Origin: Echinarachnius parma | Taxonomy: Eukaryota > Echinodermata > Echinoidea > Clypeasteroida > Echinarachniidae | Assembly (NCBI GenBank): GCA_037951105.1 | Contig: JBAMJV010009403.1 | Coordinates: forward strand, 1-64,000 | Direction of reading: 5' to 3' | Length of the DNA: 64,000 bases | Shown: positions 42,361 through 64,000 of the stretch, in pieces | Layout: the number at the start of each line of letters is the position of its first letter | How positions within the stretch are numbered: position 1 is the stretch's first letter | Made by a program: the position numbers and the translations under genes | Notes under the pieces: model-generated | The model's database searches: none | What the model saw: the letters and a program-made list of their open reading frames with translations, nothing else | What the model was told of the DNA's origin: nothing

Positions 42361-42448
42361 TGCCTTTTCCCTCTCCTCAGTCCTGCAGACGACTGTCCAG
42401 AAGTAGAGACTGATTGTATTCTGCTAGGTATGTGACCTGCGCACCACC
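42361..42448 (+). promoter_or_regulatory. NLR 5' leader: splice acceptor and start-stop upstream ORF
   Basis: A pyrimidine-rich 'ttttccctctcctcag' (ending 42380) looks like a good splice acceptor, implying at least one upstream untranslated exon that I cannot locate. In-frame stops at 42404 and 42425 exclude an earlier start in the coding frame. A minimal upstream ORF, ATG directly followed by TGA (42430-42435), lies 13 bases before the main ATG. Start-stop elements of this kind are known to hold ribosomes and lower translation. That role here is inference. Confidence 0.5.
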
Positions 42449-42919
42449 ATGCCTGTCTCCATGTGTGACTGGAGGGTCAGGATTGGGAGATTTATTCCAA
42501 GACCTCCAGTCAAGCACGACAAGACACGAAAGGGCAAGAGATTCCGCCAAAGAAACAAAAAGAAAAGGAAAAAGAAATTACGGACAAGAAAAGAGGAGAA
42601 CAAGAAAAGGGGGGAAAGGGTAGTTCCTAAATACATTAAGAAGAAAGTGAAAGGAATCGTTCACCAAAAGGGATGGAAGAAGATATTGAAACAACGACAT
42701 GTATCACAAAAGGAAGCAGACGCAAGGGAAGAACCATCCCAGAAAGAGCAACATGCAGAGGAAGCAACTGTTGATAGACTGAGAACGAGCACTATGGAGA
42801 GGGCGACCTCATTATGTGAGAGTGAAGCTGCCACACACGAGTATTCACTGAGTTGTTCATCAGGCATCTACCTTCGATGTAGGAAACATTTCAAGCGTAT
42901 AACGTCACGAGCTAAAAAG
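42449..42919 (+). CDS. NLR exon 1: very basic N-terminal segment plus first module
   Basis: It has 157 codons and ends on AAG before the donor GTTAGA, in phase 0. The ATG sits in a strong context (caccaccATGc). Residues about 24-95 are extremely Lys/Arg-rich (for example NKKKRKKKLRTRK), which would suit nuclear or nucleic-acid targeting. The last roughly 30 residues (SSGIYLRCRKHFKRITSRAKKV) form the first copy of a module that recurs in exons 2-6. No known domain is recognised. Membership of the NLR gene is inferred from strand, phase and shared module sequence. Transcript evidence would be needed for certainty. Confidence 0.68.
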
Positions 42920-43923: not shown

Positions 43924-44115
43924 ACTAAACAAGCAGGAATCATCAAAGGTGGAGGATCCCTCTCCTCTGAGTCAAGGAGGACAAGCGGTGGCCGAAAAGG
44001 GACCTCATCATTCAACGGTGAAGCTGACACATCCAGCTATTCAGAGAGTCGGTCACCTGGCATCTTTCATCGCTGTAGGAAACGTCTCAAGTGCATAACA
44101 CCACGAGCTAAAAAA
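43924..44115 (+). CDS. NLR exon 2: basic Ser/Arg module
   Basis: It has 64 codons, phase 0 at both ends. The acceptor is 'aacgcag' and the donor AAA then GTAAAT. It starts TKQAG and ends with the module SPGIFHRCRKRLKCITPRAKKV, closely related to the end of exon 1 and to exons 3 and 4. The acceptor '(a)acgcag' before ACT/ATT is also conserved in these exons, so the exon duplicated together with its splice signals. Function is unknown. A mariner-like MITE begins only about 25 bases after the donor. Confidence 0.72.
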
Positions 44116-44142
44116 GTAAATGTAATAGACAGGCTATATGTA

Positions 44143-44660
44143 CAGGGTGGCCCCCAAAAAACGGAACAGGGCACTTCCCAAAATATAGTATCAAACTATG
44201 TATATCAACCAGATAAGGTGTCTTTTCCAATGAAAAACGATACCAAGAACAGTACTTTTGGTCGTGTAGTTTTTGTCTTAGGACGCCTTGAGTGAGACCA
44301 TGTCAGGTGCCAATTTTTGTCAATTTGTACCTAGTCAGGGCCAGTAAAACCGCACTCACTGCCCGTAATACCATGCCCATTATCTCGGCACACGGCTGAG
44401 TGCACACTGTTAATGGCGCACTGTGTTATACGCTATGAAAGGCGGTGCGTGCGGTTTTACTGGCCCTGACTAGATACAAATTAACAGAAAACGGAACCTG
44501 ACATCATGTCACTCACAGCGCCCTAGAACAAAAACTACTCAACCAAAATGGCTGCTCTTGGTATCGTTTTTCATTGTAAGGACACCCTATCCATTGGACA
44601 TAATAATTGTGTTGCTGTATTTTGGGAAGTGCCCCGTTCCGTTTTTTGGGGGCCACCCTG
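44143..44660. mobile_element. Mariner-like MITE, family B, complete, in NLR intron 2
   Basis: TA-flanked ends 'cagggtggcccccaaaaaac' and 'gttttttgggggccaccctg' are perfect mirrors. The halves are inverted around about 44400, so the element folds back on itself. 518 bp, no transposase. Confidence 0.92.
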
Positions 44661-45615: not shown

Positions 45616-45813
45616 GCTAAAAAGGCGGGAAACAGCATAGAAACAGGATTCACTTCATCTGAGTCGCAGAGAACCAGCGACGGCCAATGGAGAATCTCGC
45701 TATCCGTAGGTGAACCGTCTACTCCCAGTTGTTCCCAGAGTCGGCCTCCTGGTTTCCTCAACCGAAGTAGGAAACGTCTCAAGTGCCTCACAATCACATC
45801 ACGACTTAAAAAG
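45616..45813 (+). pseudogene. NLR exon 3: basic module with a lost splice acceptor
   Basis: It is colinear with exons 2 and 4 over 66 codons, including RPPGFLNRSRKRLKCLTITSRLKKV, and keeps a donor (AAG then GTTAGT). At the acceptor its siblings read 'aacgcag', but this copy reads 'aacgcgg', so the essential AG is GG. The next AG (45635) would enter out of phase with exon 2. The exon is therefore probably skipped, which its 0-0 phase allows without frame damage. It is labelled pseudo-exon on that basis. Confidence 0.62.
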
Positions 45814-45889
45814 GTTAGTTTAATGTTACCATACTTGACCATTTGCACTGATGATACTAAAATATATGATTGAAAAAGAGCAAAGCAAA

Positions 45890-45963
45890 TGAGAATCCAA
45901 CGGGATTCGAACCCGAGACCTCAGGATTGCTAAACCGGTGCTCTTACCGACTGAGTTATAGAA
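45890..45963 (-). repeat. tRNA-Ala-like SINE head, unit a
   Basis: It reads on the minus strand as 'taactcagtcggtaagagc' (A box), a 'tagcaat' anticodon-loop region with AGC in the anticodon position, and 'gggttcgaatccc' (perfect T arm, B box). The acceptor stem does not pair properly and the unit sits in a repeat, so a SINE head is preferred over a working tRNA gene. Confidence 0.7.
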
Positions 45964-46181
45964 AACACGAGTACGGCACTTATCCCTGAAACCCCTTAAT
46001 TGTAATTGCTCGAGTGGTCAGAAGCTATTATAAACCTGACATAAACCCAAGGATAAACTTCCACTTTGAAAAATATATGCGAGGGATCACCGAAGTGATG
46101 CAGCTTTTTGTAATAATTAATTCAAACATATAAAGAAACTGACCAGAAATATATAAAGTGATTGAACAAGAGCAAAGAAAA

Positions 46182-46255
46182 TGGGGTTCCAATGGGATTC
46201 GAACCTGAGACCTCCAAATTGCTAGACCGGTGCTTATATCGACTGAGCTCTAGAA
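46182..46255 (-). repeat. tRNA-Ala-like SINE head, unit b
   Basis: It is the same arrangement as unit a but more decayed: the A-box region reads 'agctcagtcgatataagc' and the B box 'aggttcgaatccc'. Confidence 0.65.
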
Positions 46256-46377
46256 AACCCTAGTACGGCGCTCATCCCTGAAACCCCTTACATTTCATTG
46301 CTCGAGTGGTAAGAAGCTATTTTCCACTCGAGCAATACAAATTAAAAGGTTTTAGGGATGAGCGCCGCACTAGGGTT

Positions 46378-46461
46378 TTATTTAGCCCAGTTAGCCCAGT
46401 CGGTAATAGCACCGGTCTAGCAATCCGGAGTTCTCGGGTTCAAATCCCGTTCGAATCACAT
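46378..46461 (+). repeat. tRNA-Ala-like SINE head, unit c
   Basis: The A box region is partly duplicated ('agcccagttagcccagtcgg') and the B box reads 'gggttcaaatccc'. It is the inner unit of the right arm, facing unit b. Confidence 0.65.
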
Positions 46462-46688
46462 TATCTTTGCTCTTTTTCAATCACATTATATATTTCTTGT
46501 GAGTTTTTTGTATATGTTTAAATTAATTATTACAAAAAAACTGTATCACTTCAGTGATCCCTCGCATATATTATCCAAAGTGGATGTTTATCCTTTGGGT
46601 TTATGTCAGGTTTATAATAGCTTCTGACCACTCGAGCAATGAAAATTAAAGGGTTTCAGGATGTCAGGGATGAGCGCCGTACTAGGGT

Positions 46689-46763
46689 TTTCTGTAGCTC
46701 AGTCGGTAAGAGCACCGGTCTAGCAATCCGGAGGTCTCGGGTTCAAATCCCGTTGGTATCCCA
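46689..46763 (+). repeat. tRNA-Ala-like SINE head, unit d
   Basis: It is the best preserved unit: 'tgtagctcagtcggtaagag', anticodon stem CCGG/CCGG around a loop with AGC, then 'cgggttcaaatcccg'. Mismatch at the base of the anticodon stem and a poor acceptor stem argue against a functional tRNA. Confidence 0.7.
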
Positions 46764-46800
46764 TTTGCTTTGCTCTTTTTGAATCACATTTTATATTTCT

Positions 46801-47719
46801 AGTCAGTTTCTTGATATTAAAATATGATACAAATATGGTTTTAGGCGACATATGTGCTAGGCACAACAATACATTCAATTATATCGGCGATATTTCACCT
46901 AATTCCAACTTTACACAAAAAGGAAATAAGTCGGATATTGCAGATAACATGTATGGGGGGGGGGGGGTGGTGAGGGTTCTCATATGCTTCTTCGATAAGT
47001 AAGTCAATATTATAAAATACGACACAAGCAATGAGTACTTCTCATGGTAATAAGTGTTATCAGAACAATGTGCATTGTTCTGCTCTGTTGGGGTAAAACA
47101 AATTATACTCTGAAGCTGAAACCAATACAAATATAACGCAAATGGTTTTGTAACAATTTACATGTGTTATATCATATTTGATTACTGAAGCTTAATTTAA
47201 TCTTTAATTATGAAAAAGGCACCTCTTTCATAAATAGGTATCAATTGAAAGCTTTTGATTCTATATGTTGCTGCTTACTAAGTATTTGCGTGTTCTATGT
47301 TGTGGTCTTCTACAATGAAATCAAAAGAGGGTATTCTTATACTATAACAATTAAAATGTTTATGTCACCGTGACTTGTTTAAAAATTCATTTTAGGAGTT
47401 TGTACAAATTTTACCGAATGGTATAATATCTAATCAATTTGATTAGTCCAGTGACCAGATGCAACAAAATTGGTATATTTATTATCATGATTATTTGATG
47501 TAGGGATGCAAGTAATCATGCCTACAAGTAATTCCTTATGTTTGTAGAACTGCAATAATTGTAATGAAGTTCATTAATGTTAGCCTATTATTGTTGTCTT
47601 TTTTCCCAGTAGATAACACATATCCTTTAACATTTGCATGTTAGAATACGAAATACATGATATCTGTCTATCTATATAGTACATATAATTTGTTATTGTA
47701 TTGTATTGCTAAAACGCAG
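46801..47719. other. NLR intron sequence; no gene seen
   Basis: AT-rich. A 13-base G run lies at about 46955, and nothing else was recognised. Confidence 0.45.
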
Positions 47720-47878
47720 ATTGAACAAGGAGAACCCCTTTCACTCGAATCGCGAAGAAGACGGGTCTCCCCATCCGAGGGTGAAGCCGCTACTTCCAGC
47801 TATTCAAAGAGTCGGTCACCTGGCATCTTGCATCGATGCAGGAAACATCTCAAGCGTCTTACGTCACGACCTAAAAAG
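47720..47878 (+). CDS. NLR exon 4: basic Ser/Arg module
   Basis: It has 53 codons, phase 0-0, with acceptor 'aacgcag' and donor AAG then GTTAAA (weak at +4/+5). The encoded SRSPGILHRCRKHLKRLT is the clearest copy of the module. The central Ser stretch (SYSKSRSP) could be phosphorylated like an RS domain, but that is inference. It lacks the roughly 10-residue insertion present in exon 2. Confidence 0.7.
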
Positions 47879-49710: not shown

Positions 49711-49899
49711 ACTAAACAAACAGAAACATGTGTAGAAGCGGGATCCACCTCCTTCACGTCGCAGCCAACCAGTGATGACAGAAGCGAGACCTCGTCATGT
49801 GACAGTAGTGCTGACCCACACAACCCTTCACAGACTCATGCACCTGCAATATTCACCCGATTTAGTAATGTGACGTGTCTGACATCACACTCAAAACAG
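49711..49899 (+). CDS. NLR exon 6: most diverged module
   Basis: It has 63 codons, phase 0-0. The acceptor is 'aatgcag' and the donor CAG then GTACCA. It starts TKQTET like exon 2 and ends APAIFTRFSNVTCLTSHSKQV, in which only the spacing and the Thr-Ser-x-x-Lys/Gln-x-Val end recall the basic module. The length is identical to exon 5, so those two are the closest pair. No known domain. Confidence 0.62.
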
Positions 49900-49985
49900 G
49901 TACCATGTCATTATTCCAGTATAATCGAATTTCGTCTTCATGAACTATGGAAGTGGTCTATATTTATATAGATTGGGCTCTTATA

Positions 49986-50503
49986 CAGGGTGGGCCAAAA
50001 AAAACGGAACAGGGCACTTCCCAAAATATAGTACCAAACTATTTATGTCCATCATATAGGGTGTCTTTTCCAATGAAAAACGATACCAAGAACAGTAATT
50101 TTGGACGTGTAGTTTTTGTTTTAGGACGCTGTGAGTGAGACCATGTCAGGTGCCAATTTTTGTCAATTTTTACCTATTCATGACCAGTAAAACCGCACTC
50201 ACTGCCCGTAATATCAATGCCCATTATCTCGGAACACGGCTGAGTGCACACTGTCAATGGCGCGCTGTGTATATGGTATGAAAGGCGGTGCGTGCGGGTT
50301 TACTGGCCCTGACTAGGTAGAAATTGACAAAAAACGGAATCTGACATCATGTCACTAACAGCGCCCTAGAACAAAAACTACTCAACCAAAATCACTGTTC
50401 TTGGTATCATTTTTCATTAGAAAGGACACCCTATCCATTGGACATAATAATTGCGTTGCTGTATTTTGGAAGTGCCCCGTTCCGTTTTTTGGGGGGCACC
50501 CTG
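49986..50503. mobile_element. Mariner-like MITE, family B, complete, in NLR intron 6
   Basis: It is TA-flanked, from 'cagggtgggccaaaaaaaac' to 'ttttttggggggcaccctg'. It is highly similar to 44143-44660, including the central 'cgtgcgg(g/t)tttactggccctga'. The two copies were therefore probably active together, or the introns were duplicated with their contents. Confidence 0.9.
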
Positions 50504-50698
50504 TATAGGCAAGGAAAAGGTAGACAAAATCAGGATAACAATGTACACAGTACAGACACAAACACAACAGTGTCATCTGTATGATAGTCGTAACAATACT
50601 ATCTATGTTACTTTAATCTTTATGCATGAACAAAACAACACACAATACAGATGTTAGTACTGTTTATCATATTTTGTATCAATATTCATATAAAGCAG

Positions 50699-50850
50699 AA
50701 AACAACACGGAAGAAGAATAATGACCCACATACGGTGCGTGCACAGAGCGGGCTAAAGCGTCTGTGGAAGCGGTTTCTCTCCAAACTTCACCTCATGAGG
50801 GCAGGAGACATAGAAACCAACCCAGGACCCAAGGCGAAGTCAAAGCATGA
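50699..50850 (+). CDS. NLR exon 7: 2A-type ribosome-skipping peptide
   Basis: It has 50 codons plus 2 bases, with acceptor 'aaagcag' and donor GA then GTACAT. It ends in RAGDIETNPGP, which fits the 2A consensus D(V/I)ExNPGP at every fixed position, followed by KAKSKH. The residues before it (LKRLWKRFLSKLHLM) form a basic amphipathic stretch, as expected upstream of 2A. In working 2A sequences the ribosome fails to join the final Gly (to 50827) and Pro (from 50828), giving two proteins from one mRNA. NLRs with N-terminal 2A-like sequences are known from sea urchins. Activity here is untested. Confidence 0.82.
50807..50830 (+). other. 2A skip motif DIETNPGP
   Basis: Codons GAC to CCC. The predicted break is between Gly (GGA, 50825-50827) and Pro (CCC, 50828-50830). 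All six residues required by the D-x-E-x-N-P-G-P consensus are present. Confidence 0.85.
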
Positions 50851-52054: not shown

Positions 52055-52323
52055 TTTTAATGTAGTCCTCCGGGCTGTGGCTCGAGATATCGTCGATAGA
52101 GACACAATTGAAGCCTTGGGAAGAGAACTGGGATTCCATCAGGGAGCGATAGAGAACTACATCAAAACCAACATGCGGTCCCAAAGCGTGACTAGTGAAG
52201 GAACACTGCAGATGTTACGGGACTGGCACGACACCGTGGGGAAGGCCGAGGAGAGGCCCGTCCTAAGAGAAGCGCTGGTGAAGGGCAACCTACGTAGGAT
52301 AGCAGATGAATATCTACCGGGCG
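52055..52323 (+). CDS. NLR exon 8: Death domain
   Basis: It encodes about 89 residues with a Death-domain pattern: FNVVLRAVARDIVD, then ALGRELGF, an AIENYI helix, MLRDWHDTV (the conserved Trp) and REALVKGNLRRIADEYL. Acceptor 'tatctcag' (ending 52054) gives a one-base start that completes the two bases left by exon 7. The alternative AG at 52065 would not match phase. The donor is a strong G then GTAAGT, phase 1. Death domains recruit signalling adaptors through homotypic contacts. In this gene the domain would be the first folded unit of the post-2A product. Confidence 0.88.
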
Positions 52324-55449: not shown

Positions 55450-55605
55450 CGAAGTTGTCAACCTCCCCGTGGTGGATCCTGGAAACTGTACATCAGGCGA
55501 ATGACAACAACTAGAGTCAACGACAGCGTCGTGACATCACCGCATAGTAGCACCCTTGTCCGCGTCACTTGAACGCACCACGTCAGACCAACACCACTTT
55601 GAAGC

Positions 55606-56098
55606 ATGCAGCATAGCGCCAACCCACAACACGCGCCCTTGTCAGGGCGGGCATCATCTGATGTCATACGGGACGGCATCACCATCATGCAGCTGAATGT
55701 GGAAGGCATTACTACGGCCAAGATCAACATCATCGAACACCTTCTCCAAAAGCACAAACCTAGTGCTATACTAAGGACATCTCACACCTAAATATCCAAG
55801 GCGTTACCCTAGCTGCTCACACCGAGAGCGACATTCATGGCATCGCCACCTTCATAAGGAACTCTGCCAAATGGAACACAATAGCCTCATGCCATCCAGA
55901 CTCAAGCCTGGAGTGGACAGCAACATCAGTCGAAGGAGTTACAGTCACCAATGTCTACAAGCCCCCCCCCCCCCCACCTTTCGCCTTCAGACTGACTCGA
56001 TCCCAACCTTAGCCCCACCCTGCATTTACGCAGGCGACTTTACTGACCAACCTAGTGGAACTAGACGTAGACAACCTACCCTTACCATCCTCCTCTAA
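55606..56098 (+). pseudogene. Second LINE: endonuclease fragment
   Basis: The opening ITIMQLNVEGI (with the catalytic Asn) followed by KINIIEHLLQKHKPSAI is the N-terminus of APE-type endonucleases. The expected Glu motif (QETHT-type) is blurred to LRTSHT with a nearby frameshift. YAGDF at about 56030 is the central motif. A poly-C run (about 55963-55976) lies at one of the frame changes. Confidence 0.78.
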
Positions 56099-57567
56099 CA
56101 TGGACCAAGCGTACACATCATACCGCAACCTTCTCACCACAGCAGCCATGAGCTTCATCCCACGCGGCCACCGCCGCTGCTACATCCCCTCATGAGACGA
56201 TGAATATAACGACCTCTACAACGACTTCCTCGAGGCCGAATGCGGCGATGAAGCAGCCTCTAAGGCAACCCTTCTAACAGCCTGCCTAGACAACAAACGC
56301 AGAGAGAGATGGGAGGAGACAGTTCAAGGAATTAACTTCACCCACTCCAGCAGACTGGCCTGGAAAACGAAGTCCCAAGCCAAAACAATGCCCCGTTACC
56401 GCTAACTCAATCGCGGAACAGCTCCTCGAGAACGGTCGCTTCAAAGACGCATACAAGAACCACACTCGCCACATCAAACATGAAACATCCAAACTCTGGC
56501 AGGCACCAGGAGTGGATGGACTCTTGTCATCAAAGGCTCAAGGACCAGACAACCTGCCTCCTGAGTTCCTACTGCACTGCGGACCCAAATGCCTGGAATG
56601 GTTATCATCCTGCCCCACCCACCAGTATGGCGCAAAGCAACCATCATCGCCTTACCCAAGCCAAACAAGCCCTTAGACAACCCCAAGAACTACAGACCAA
56701 TCTCCTCCTCTGCATCCCCTTCAAGCTACTCGAAAGACTCCTCCTAGCCCGGCTGGAACCAATCGTCGACCCCCAACTTCCTTACGAACAAGTAGGTTTC
56801 CGCCGCTGCCGCAGCACCGTCCAACAAGTAGTCTTGCTCACCAATGACATCGAGAGCAGTTTTGAGAGAGGCCACAAGGCTGATGCCATCCTGGTCGACC
56901 TAACTGCAGCCTACGACACCGTGTTGCACCAGGGACTTACCCTGAAGCTCCTCTAGATGGTCCCAGACCGCCACCTAGTAGGATTCATAACCAACAACCT
57001 ATCTAACCGCAAGGTTCAGTCATGGCACCAACGCTCTTCAACATTTACATCAGTGATATGCCCAAGACTGCCGCACGACAGTACGGCTACGCAGACGACC
57101 TTGCTCTCTTCCACTCGGACAAAAAATGGTCAAAAGTTGAAGACGCCCTAACATATGACATGACCAAGATAGCGAACTACGTGAAGACATGGAGACTAAA
57201 GCTGAGCGCTGCAAAAACAACGGCAACTGCCTTCCACCTCAACACCAAAGAAGCAAACCGCCAGCTCACAGTCAAAGTCAACAGGAACCCAATGCCCTAC
57301 ATCCCCTCCCCAACATATCTTGGAGTAAAGCTAGATAGACAGCTGACCTTCAAACCACACCTTGATTCACTCCGAGCCAAAATCTCATCTAGGAACCACC
57401 TACTCCGCCGCCTTGCGGGCACCACCGGGGGTGCTAAAACTCCCACGCTTCGTACTGACGCCCTCGCACTAGTCTATAGTGCTGCCGAGTATGCCGCCCC
57501 TACATGGTGTCGCAGCTCACAAACACCCAAATTGGACATTCTGAACGAGGATCATCATCATGAATGA
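56099..57567 (+). pseudogene. Second LINE: reverse transcriptase
   Basis: The motifs are in order: QAPGVDGL-type text and PKPNKPLDNPKNYRPIS-type text are readable across frames near 56500-56705. These are followed by CIPFKLLERLLLARLEPI, QVGFRRCRST, AILVDLTAAYDTV, MAPTLFNIYISDMP and YGYADDLALF (catalytic YADD). YLGVKLDRQLTFKPHL comes in the thumb region. Breaks occur near 56500-56700, at 56954 and at about 57020. Long stretches remain open, so it is younger than the LINE at 21 kb. Confidence 0.86.
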
Positions 57568-58143
57568 GGATCATCACAGGATGCCTCAGACCCACACCAA
57601 CTGATCTCTTACCAGTAATCGCTGGTATCACACCCCCGCCCTCCGCAGAGAACACTATACTCAACAACTAGTAAACAAGTCCCTCCAAGACCGTACACAC
57701 CCTCTACACCATACCACCCAGAACACACATCCGGCCCGCCAACGCCTACGCTCACGCAAACCGTTCAGTCGCCATGCTGACACCTTGCGGGAGGGTACCC
57801 ACAACACCCTCACCGCATGGAAGGACAGCTGGCAGCAGACCCAAACCCCCCTCAATTCAAAGTGACCCCAAACACAAAGCTACCACTTGGCGCGGATCTA
57901 CCCCGAAAGGATTGGGTCACCCTGAACAGGCTCCGCACAGGGGTCGGCAGATTTAACGCCAACATGCACTGCTGGGGACTCAGACCTTCTCCGGCTTGCA
58001 TGTGTGGAGCACCCGAGCAGACTGCCTCCCACATCATGAAGAGTGCCCAATACTTCGCCCACCCCGGCCACCCAAACCCAGATTTGAACAACTTGGACCC
58101 CGACACTGTTCACTGGCTACAAAACTTGCGTGATGTTGCGTAG
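57568..58143 (+). pseudogene. Second LINE: C-terminal segment with Cys/His motif
   Basis: LNRLRTGVGRFNANMHCWG then CMCGAPEQTASHIMKSAQ gives a C-x-C-G-x-x-E-Q-T-x-x-H pattern seen at the ends of many invertebrate LINE proteins. In relatives the block ends with a Cys where this copy has Ala. The segment stops at 58141 (TAG), shortly before the (AAG)n tail. It is out of frame with the RT block. Confidence 0.8.
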
Positions 58144-62769: not shown

Positions 62770-63480
62770 ATAATCCATCTCCAAGACTGCCGACTCTCAC
62801 AGACGAACAGATTGAAGACTGTGCTAATGATCTCCGGTCTTTCTATCGGAGGCATATATGCAAGATAAGAGATGACCCTCTCGACCCCACTTCACTCCGT
62901 CCATTGGAGGAGATCTACACCAACCTCAAGATGCACACTGAAGATGGCGATGAGTGGGAAGAATTGAAATACGAAGACCTCCTCACAATCGACAACAATG
63001 GGGAGCTCGCCAAACGACTGCTGGTACAGGGAGAAACTGGGTCTGGCAAGACCACCCTGTGTGCAAAGATTGCATGGGACTGGGTGAATCAAACACAATT
63101 CACACAATTCAAAATGGTTCTCATCATCCCACTAAGAGAATCTGAAAATTACACCGTTGGACAAATAGTGAAAGGCTATCTTAGGAAAAACAATCCTATT
63201 CAAGCCAACCAGCTGGATACATACATCATGTTGAATCCAGATAAGTTCTTCATCATCCTTGACGGGCTTGATGAGTTCAAAAGGACAATTCCCGAGTCAA
63301 ATACCAACATGTCACAGGAAAATCACATAGACATTGTCAAAACTCTGACATCAGATCACCTAGAAAACTGCTTTGTGTTGGTAACGACACGGCCTTGGAA
63401 AGCAGACGAGATCAGATGGAATTTGAAACTAAGAGAATTGTATTCCTTCATCCGCGTTGAATGTTTCAATAAGAACGATA
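62770..63480 (+). CDS. NLR exon 9: NACHT domain, N-terminal part
   Basis: The exon starts with AT, completing the G left by exon 8 (Asp), then NPSPRLPTLTDEQIEDC. The NACHT NTPase follows: Walker A GETGSGKTT (63030-63056), Walker B FFIILDGLDE (63246-63275) with the extra acidic residue typical of NACHT, and sensor-1-like FVLVTTRPWKADE. NACHT domains bind ATP and drive receptor oligomerisation in cytosolic innate immune sensing. The frame runs into a stop at 63492 after FNKNDIL because of an apparent single-base deletion at about 63482. The ATG at 62751 lies in the intron and is not the start. Confidence 0.9.
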
Positions 63481-63484
63481 TTTT

Positions 63485-64000
63485 GGTTACATAGCGAAAT
63501 ATTTTAGGAATGATGAAACAAAAGCTAACACACTAATCCAATGTATACATGATAATGACATAATATTCGAACACATGGCCCCATATCCTATTTACATAGC
63601 TATGCTATGTTTGATGTGGAGAGAGCAGGGGAATGAGAAAAGAACAGAATTACAAAAGCTACAGACATTTTCACAGATATTTAAGGAAATGTTTATATTC
63701 TGAGAGAGCATTTTATCATTAATGGTTTGGATCTAGATGATTCATCACGAGAGGTGCATCTCAGAGAAATAGATGACCACTTGAAACTCAGTTTCCCAGA
63801 TCGCATTCAATGGCCTTTTGAAAAGAAAGATGATTTCAAAGAAAATGATTTCAAAGACTGCCCCGATGCCATGAAAACGGCGTGTAAAATCGGAGTTCTT
63901 ACGAAAGAAAGAAAGCTGATCCCCAATGTACAGTTGCAGGGTACTTCCCAATCCCGGTTACAACCTACAGTGTACTTCACCCATAAGCTCTTCCAAGAGT
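63485..64000 (+). pseudogene. NLR exon 9 continued, out of frame: NACHT C-terminal part
   Basis: NACHT-like sequence continues in a shifted frame: GYIAKYF from 63485 and HMAPYPIYIAMLCLMW (helical subdomain) to about 63699. A second single-base loss at about 63697 shifts it again to REHFIINGLDL from 63703, then KTACKIGVLTKERKLI and TVYFTHKLFQE, the winged-helix end, at the window edge. Both shifts go the same way (apparent 1-bp deletions). Leucine-rich repeats would be expected further right. Either the gene is dead or the assembly has indel errors. Confidence 0.82.

Follow-up and report, generated by a model that had tools for sequence, protein, structure and literature searches.

In the window (the whole stretch of DNA that was analysed, 64,000 nucleotides), a series of predicted exons, e1 to e9, leads from a start codon through a 2A ribosome-skipping motif to a Death domain and a NACHT domain:

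42381..42919, forward strand: e1, the exon with the start codon (ATG at 42449, context ACCACCATGC); 157 codons, ending in phase 0
43924..44115, forward strand: e2, module exon; 64 codons, phase 0-0
45625..45813, forward strand: e3, module exon; 63 codons, the usual acceptor altered and a weak alternative used
47720..47878, forward strand: e4, module exon; 53 codons
48377..48565, forward strand: e5, diverged module exon of 63 codons whose product is not basic (pI 6.2)
49711..49899, forward strand: e6, diverged module exon of 63 codons whose product is not basic (pI 5.3)
50699..50850, forward strand: e7, the 2A exon; starts in phase 0 and leaves two bases over
50807..50830, forward strand: the 2A core, DIETNPGP, which would be split between its Gly and final Pro
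52055..52323, forward strand: e8, Death-domain exon; joins e7 in frame
62770..63491, forward strand: e9, NACHT exon (PF05729) up to an in-frame TAG
63488..64000, forward strand: NACHT continuation in two other frames (63488-63700 and 63694-64000)

The frame is open throughout e1 and the five module exons, whose lengths are all divisible by three, so that e1 to e9 stand in frame. The two bases left by e7 fit e8, and e8 in turn passes one base on to the NACHT exon that starts at 62770; at the DNA level the phases of e6, e7, e8 and e9 thus agree, and the frame is open through the 2A into the downstream protein. A first-pass annotation had reported a complete DIETNPGP in phase with Death and NACHT exons, which is what we find at 50807-50830, and had placed the 2A exon at 50699..50850; these limits match splice signals (cag/AAAAC at the 5′ end, in phase 0, and ATGA/gtacat at the 3′ end), and acceptor and donor are conserved in related exons. 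Scored with a rough weight matrix against all AG and GT sites in the window, the acceptor ranks at the 76th percentile and the donor at just the 40th. In protein sequence e7 shows no similarity to the module exons (shuffle p 0.08-0.97), and any resemblance between its acceptor region and theirs is suggestive at most (fractions 0.011-0.12, depending on the method).

The core is the sole NPGP in the six-frame translation of the window. Under a dinucleotide model NPGP alone is expected 0.42 times per window, the 2A core 4.4e-5 times, and the core with R[SA]G in front 1e-8 times; the motif is real and not a product of chance. It is directly preceded by LMRAG, and the upstream context typical of 2As (Gly before Asp, R11, L13 and hydrophobic residues) is present, with His rather than Leu at position 14. 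According to the accessible part of a survey of viral 2A/StopGo sequences (PMC12846837), these fit (D/G/C/N)(V/I)ExNPGP, as does the core here, and their L-rich upstream motifs have AG before the Asp, as here; unlike them, the window 2A lies in a spliced exon of a cellular receptor gene, and two scans of viral contigs found no relative. The same source describes cellular use of 2A as rare, and names the sea-urchin NLR 2A as a case in which incomplete separation is likely to matter.

That 2As occur in sea-urchin NLRs was already established, as the first-pass annotation had it: in the accessible part of Roulston et al. (2016; PMC4981915), 85 of 241 Strongylocentrotus purpuratus NLRs carry 2As (SpNLR2A), likewise ahead of the Death and NACHT domains, and 11 of the last 13 residues of SpNLR2A6 equal those of the window 2A. 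In SpNLR2A6, changes at R11 and L13 cut recoding, and changing the Leu at position 14 to Gly or Asp lowered activity (PMC4981915, same part). That study tested a 26-residue hydrophobic leader acting as a signal sequence, and the 2A is read as a signal-sequence switch, whereas the 2A here lies in an internal exon, with the start codon in an upstream exon (157-260 codons among the loci we translated) of a basic protein. The paper also refers to 2As 'within the N-terminal region', which could have the same leader as here. The last 26 residues at the window 2A are not hydrophobic (hydropathy peak 0.27 vs 3.08 for the signal-like form); by hydropathy, and by its upstream start codon, this 2A is thus not part of a short hydrophobic signal leader.

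The protein predicted upstream of the 2A is 506 aa long at the window locus. Its e1 part starts MPVSMCDWRVRIGRF..., is Lys/Arg-rich and has a Ser/Arg module at its end; the e1 tail and e2 to e6 are related to one another (for example, e2 vs e4 has pS 0.48 and pN 0.20), and the module is multiplied as separate predicted exons in the window's subfamily. Eleven e1-like exons were translated, all of them open, with 157-260 codons (their ends placed by us at the module) and pI 10.1-10.9. The leader of the family begins MPVSxCDWRxRIGRF. Simpler members are predicted to encode about 250 aa if only two exons are joined. The basic protein matched no family above chance level in Pfam, NCBIfam or PDB sequences, searches of the literature on 2A with NLR, NACHT or sea urchin (subscription papers being mostly outside their scope) turned up no such protein, and strings of leader letters did not occur in the literature searched. 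Several repeats lie among these exons: a palindromic element resembling a MITE, roughly 0.5 kb long and ending in sequences like ACAGGGTGGCCC, has two copies (44141-44655 and 49984-50510), the second just upstream of the 2A exon; and 45858-46817 contains sequences similar to tRNA, in both direct and inverted copies, which may be a SINE of tRNA origin. Inside the Death-NACHT intron, at 55458-58143, lies a degenerate non-LTR retroelement that includes a stretch of reverse transcriptase (PF00078).

On the receptor side, the window NACHT matches PF05729 at 2.5e-21 (76.7 bits, cut-off 26.7). The window Death exon scores 17 bits, below the Pfam cut-off of 22.6, and matches FAS with E 0.0013; the paralogous Death exon in L005 scores 27 bits, above the cut-off. 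A single-sequence structure model of the Death exon has six helices, at a low and unreliable confidence (pLDDT 50.6). A NACHT domain with an upstream Death exon is the arrangement of animal Death-NACHT NLR receptors; here a basic protein and a 2A stand in front of it.

The NACHT frame of the window stops at the TAG at 63492-63494, and the protein resumes in two other frames. The NACHT of C4365, 90% identical to it, reads through where the window frame stops and shifts; since it is intact at both points, we read the window copy as broken twice, by mutation or by assembly error, and the copy is probably a pseudogene or carries assembly errors in its NACHT exon. The first-pass annotation had described a Death-NACHT receptor here: the exon order stands, and a working receptor at this locus is not supported, given the two frame breaks. 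The chances are even that the whole window locus is a dead copy without functional product, its 2A a relic; besides the breaks absent from C4365, the weak 2A donor points that way, as does the altered e3 acceptor, though the paralogues C4365 and C529 share the latter change. Against this, e1 to e8 are all open, and single-base assembly errors would look identical to such mutations. The family would be unaffected in either case, since open NACHT frames lie downstream in C4365 (613 codons), C529 (534) and C5654 (525).

These three paralogous loci each contain e1 to e6, the 2A exon and the Death exon, that is, all eight 5′ exons, in the same order on one strand. Modules, 2A and Death are also present in C1251 and C6663, where no e1 match was found in the parts fetched, and e1, one module and the 2A in C1017 and C3228, where no Death match (E 1e-4) was found in the parts fetched. 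The upstream DNA of five further 2A loci has an e1-like exon in all five, with a phase-0 donor at the module end (AAG/gt in four, CAA/gt in the fifth); and in C621 and C5617, both of the further loci examined for this, a Death exon lies between the 2A and the NACHT. The order of basic protein, 2A, Death and NACHT proposed from the window thus recurs in other NLR genes of this genome. Altogether 25 2A loci were read, 22 of them of the window's kind; among these 22, an xCAG acceptor lies 44-46 codons before the last Pro in 19, and the 2A exon has a GTAAAT donor in 18, the window and C4365 having GTACAT. As for the rest, C238 (L056/L064) is of another kind, with another Death domain after its 2A exon (27.2 bits), and C1152 (L054) and C4 (L055) have their own start codon, 41 codons before the last Pro, with a 41-residue leader MAA(A/T)KSPCSS..., and NACHT matches downstream.

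We also counted these components across the window's assembly (1.2 Gb, 14,790 contigs). The pattern D[VI]ExNPGP, which omits valine encoded by GTG, occurs 394 times (0 in the reversed control), a protein search with the 2A exon gave at least 150 matches (150 of 278 candidates scored), and the start of the basic e1 occurs 94 times (0 in the control). For NACHT, 150 listed matches out of 182 were used, the 2A list likewise holding 150; for one NACHT match, G000:C9645:64417-64938, the open frame is given as 21670 codons long, which may reflect a run of N. For 77 of the 94 basic starts, the closest listed 2A match up to 45 kb away lies downstream and on the same strand; it is upstream or on the opposite strand for none, and 17 have no listed 2A match within that distance. 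With 10 hand-picked 2A sites added, 81 have a 2A downstream and 13 do not. Counted as pairs within 45 kb, all 77 of basic start and 2A are on the same strand with the start first (150 listed 2A matches, hand-picked sites excluded), and 71 of 72 of 2A and NACHT are on the same strand with the NACHT downstream (150 listed matches each). Among the 150 listed 2A matches, 70 are followed on their own strand by a listed NACHT no more than 45 kb away, one has it upstream and none on the opposite strand; 43 have both neighbours, 34 a basic start only, 27 a NACHT only and 46 neither, so that 73 are without a listed basic start. At least 43 of the 94 basic starts extend to a NACHT match, among the matches listed. 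Because basic starts precede the 2A genome-wide, and never in the wrong order or orientation, a long basic polypeptide rather than a short leader would lie upstream of the 2A; this had been suggested for the window from its sequence alone, and the 77 starts together with the three paralogues support it as the architecture of the family.

We therefore describe a family of NLR genes that very probably encode, in one frame, a conserved, strongly basic protein, a working 2A and a Death-NACHT receptor, with splicing and skipping predicted from DNA sequence. In this proposal e1 through e9 would be spliced into one message; ribosomes would first make the basic protein and then fail to form the Gly-Pro bond at NPG/P, and translation would continue into a receptor starting Pro-Lys-Ala, followed by the Death domain, while some ribosomes would give a fused product or stop. 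Equal amounts of the two proteins, as the first-pass annotation had expected, do not follow: in the accessible part of Roulston et al. (PMC4981915), about 80% of the product of the 26-residue signal-like form was split in vitro, with fused or terminated products to be expected as well. In this one genome, a 2A appears to let dozens of receptor genes produce an additional protein that is conserved and basic. If this holds, every such receptor would have a partner from the same message, whose role in animal innate immunity could be tested directly. Sea-urchin NLR 2As are themselves known, and the basic protein ahead of the 2A appears to be the new element, judging by the literature searched.

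It is improbable that the 2A is inactive, so that a single protein with a basic N-terminal region is made, although its skipping activity is a prediction and position 14 is His. The 25 loci gave 22 distinct 2A sequences, in which R11 is found in 22, L13 in 21 and His14 in 20, W22 like R11 is invariant and G9 is kept; the core was demanded by our filter, R11, L13 and W22 were not, and the rows were picked by similarity. The pN/pS of 0.105 over the last 8 codons, which is partly owing to this selection of rows, also argues for an active 2A. Between paralogues, dN/dS of the 2A exon is 0.17, 0.17 and 0.40, with 15-19 changes per pair.

Less probable still is that coding begins in the 2A exon itself, at an ATG at 50651, with a 60-residue hydrophobic leader resembling the signal-sequence 2As of sea urchin, and that the basic exons belong elsewhere. 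The stretch in question, MLVLFIIFCINIHI, is in the top 1.05% for hydropathy among 666 open ATG frames, its frame is open into the 2A, and the hydrophobic stretch is open in three paralogues too; moreover, C4 and C1152 do begin with an ATG of their own. However, C4365, C529 and C5654 have Ile in place of this start codon, the start context is poor and there is an upstream stop at 50627. The codon use is intron-like, with none of 171 exon windows as low; with synonymous codons only, 2.3% of exon windows are as low and 59% of intron windows as high, these windows being overlapping. Since the start is not conserved and the codons are intron-like, and with 77 of the 94 basic starts preceding a listed 2A match, we reject this short leader in favour of the long basic protein.

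Retrotransposons of sea urchin carry 2As (PMC4981915); 2A-bearing non-LTR elements were reportedly described by Odon et al. in 2013. An arrival of the window 2A with such an element, outside any receptor gene, is hardly credible and was rejected: although these retrotransposons have the same core in an animal genome, and one retroelement is present in the Death-NACHT intron, no reverse transcriptase or endonuclease frame adjoins e7, its splice sites are conserved in related 2A exons, and NACHT lies downstream on the same strand for 70 of the 150 listed 2A matches.

The basic exons and the receptor exons have diverged to different degrees. Pooled over e1 to e6, dN/dS is 0.41-0.67 in five paralogue pairs, indicating modest constraint; the ratio in the basic exon is 0.29 over the first 19 codons and 0.66 over the last 19, and dN exceeds dS in e5 between C9386 and C529 and between C9386 and C5654. 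Among C9386, C4365 and C529, dS is 0.04-0.07 in e1 to e6, against 0.22-0.42 for the 2A exon and 0.39-0.60 for the Death exon, while between C529 and C5654 it is 0 in e5 to e8 and 0.06-0.21 in e1 to e4. From this conflict between leader and receptor exons we infer that receptor genes have exchanged leaders by recombination or gene conversion. Tentatively, and somewhat short of probable, the basic protein could be a dedicated companion of the receptors, the 2A having turned NLR genes into two-protein genes, and recombination spreading a nearly identical leader among diverged receptors as a reusable immune leader cassette. As for function, our best guess, slightly more doubtful, is that the basic protein works independently alongside the receptor with which it is made; its charge, and nothing else, suggests that it might be nuclear or bind nucleic acids. 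A second, different group of Death-domain genes (C2413 and C5140) is likewise preceded by the cassette: both loci (L065 and L066) have e1 starts, and by eye the Death exon after their 2A resembles that of C238 and is doubled.
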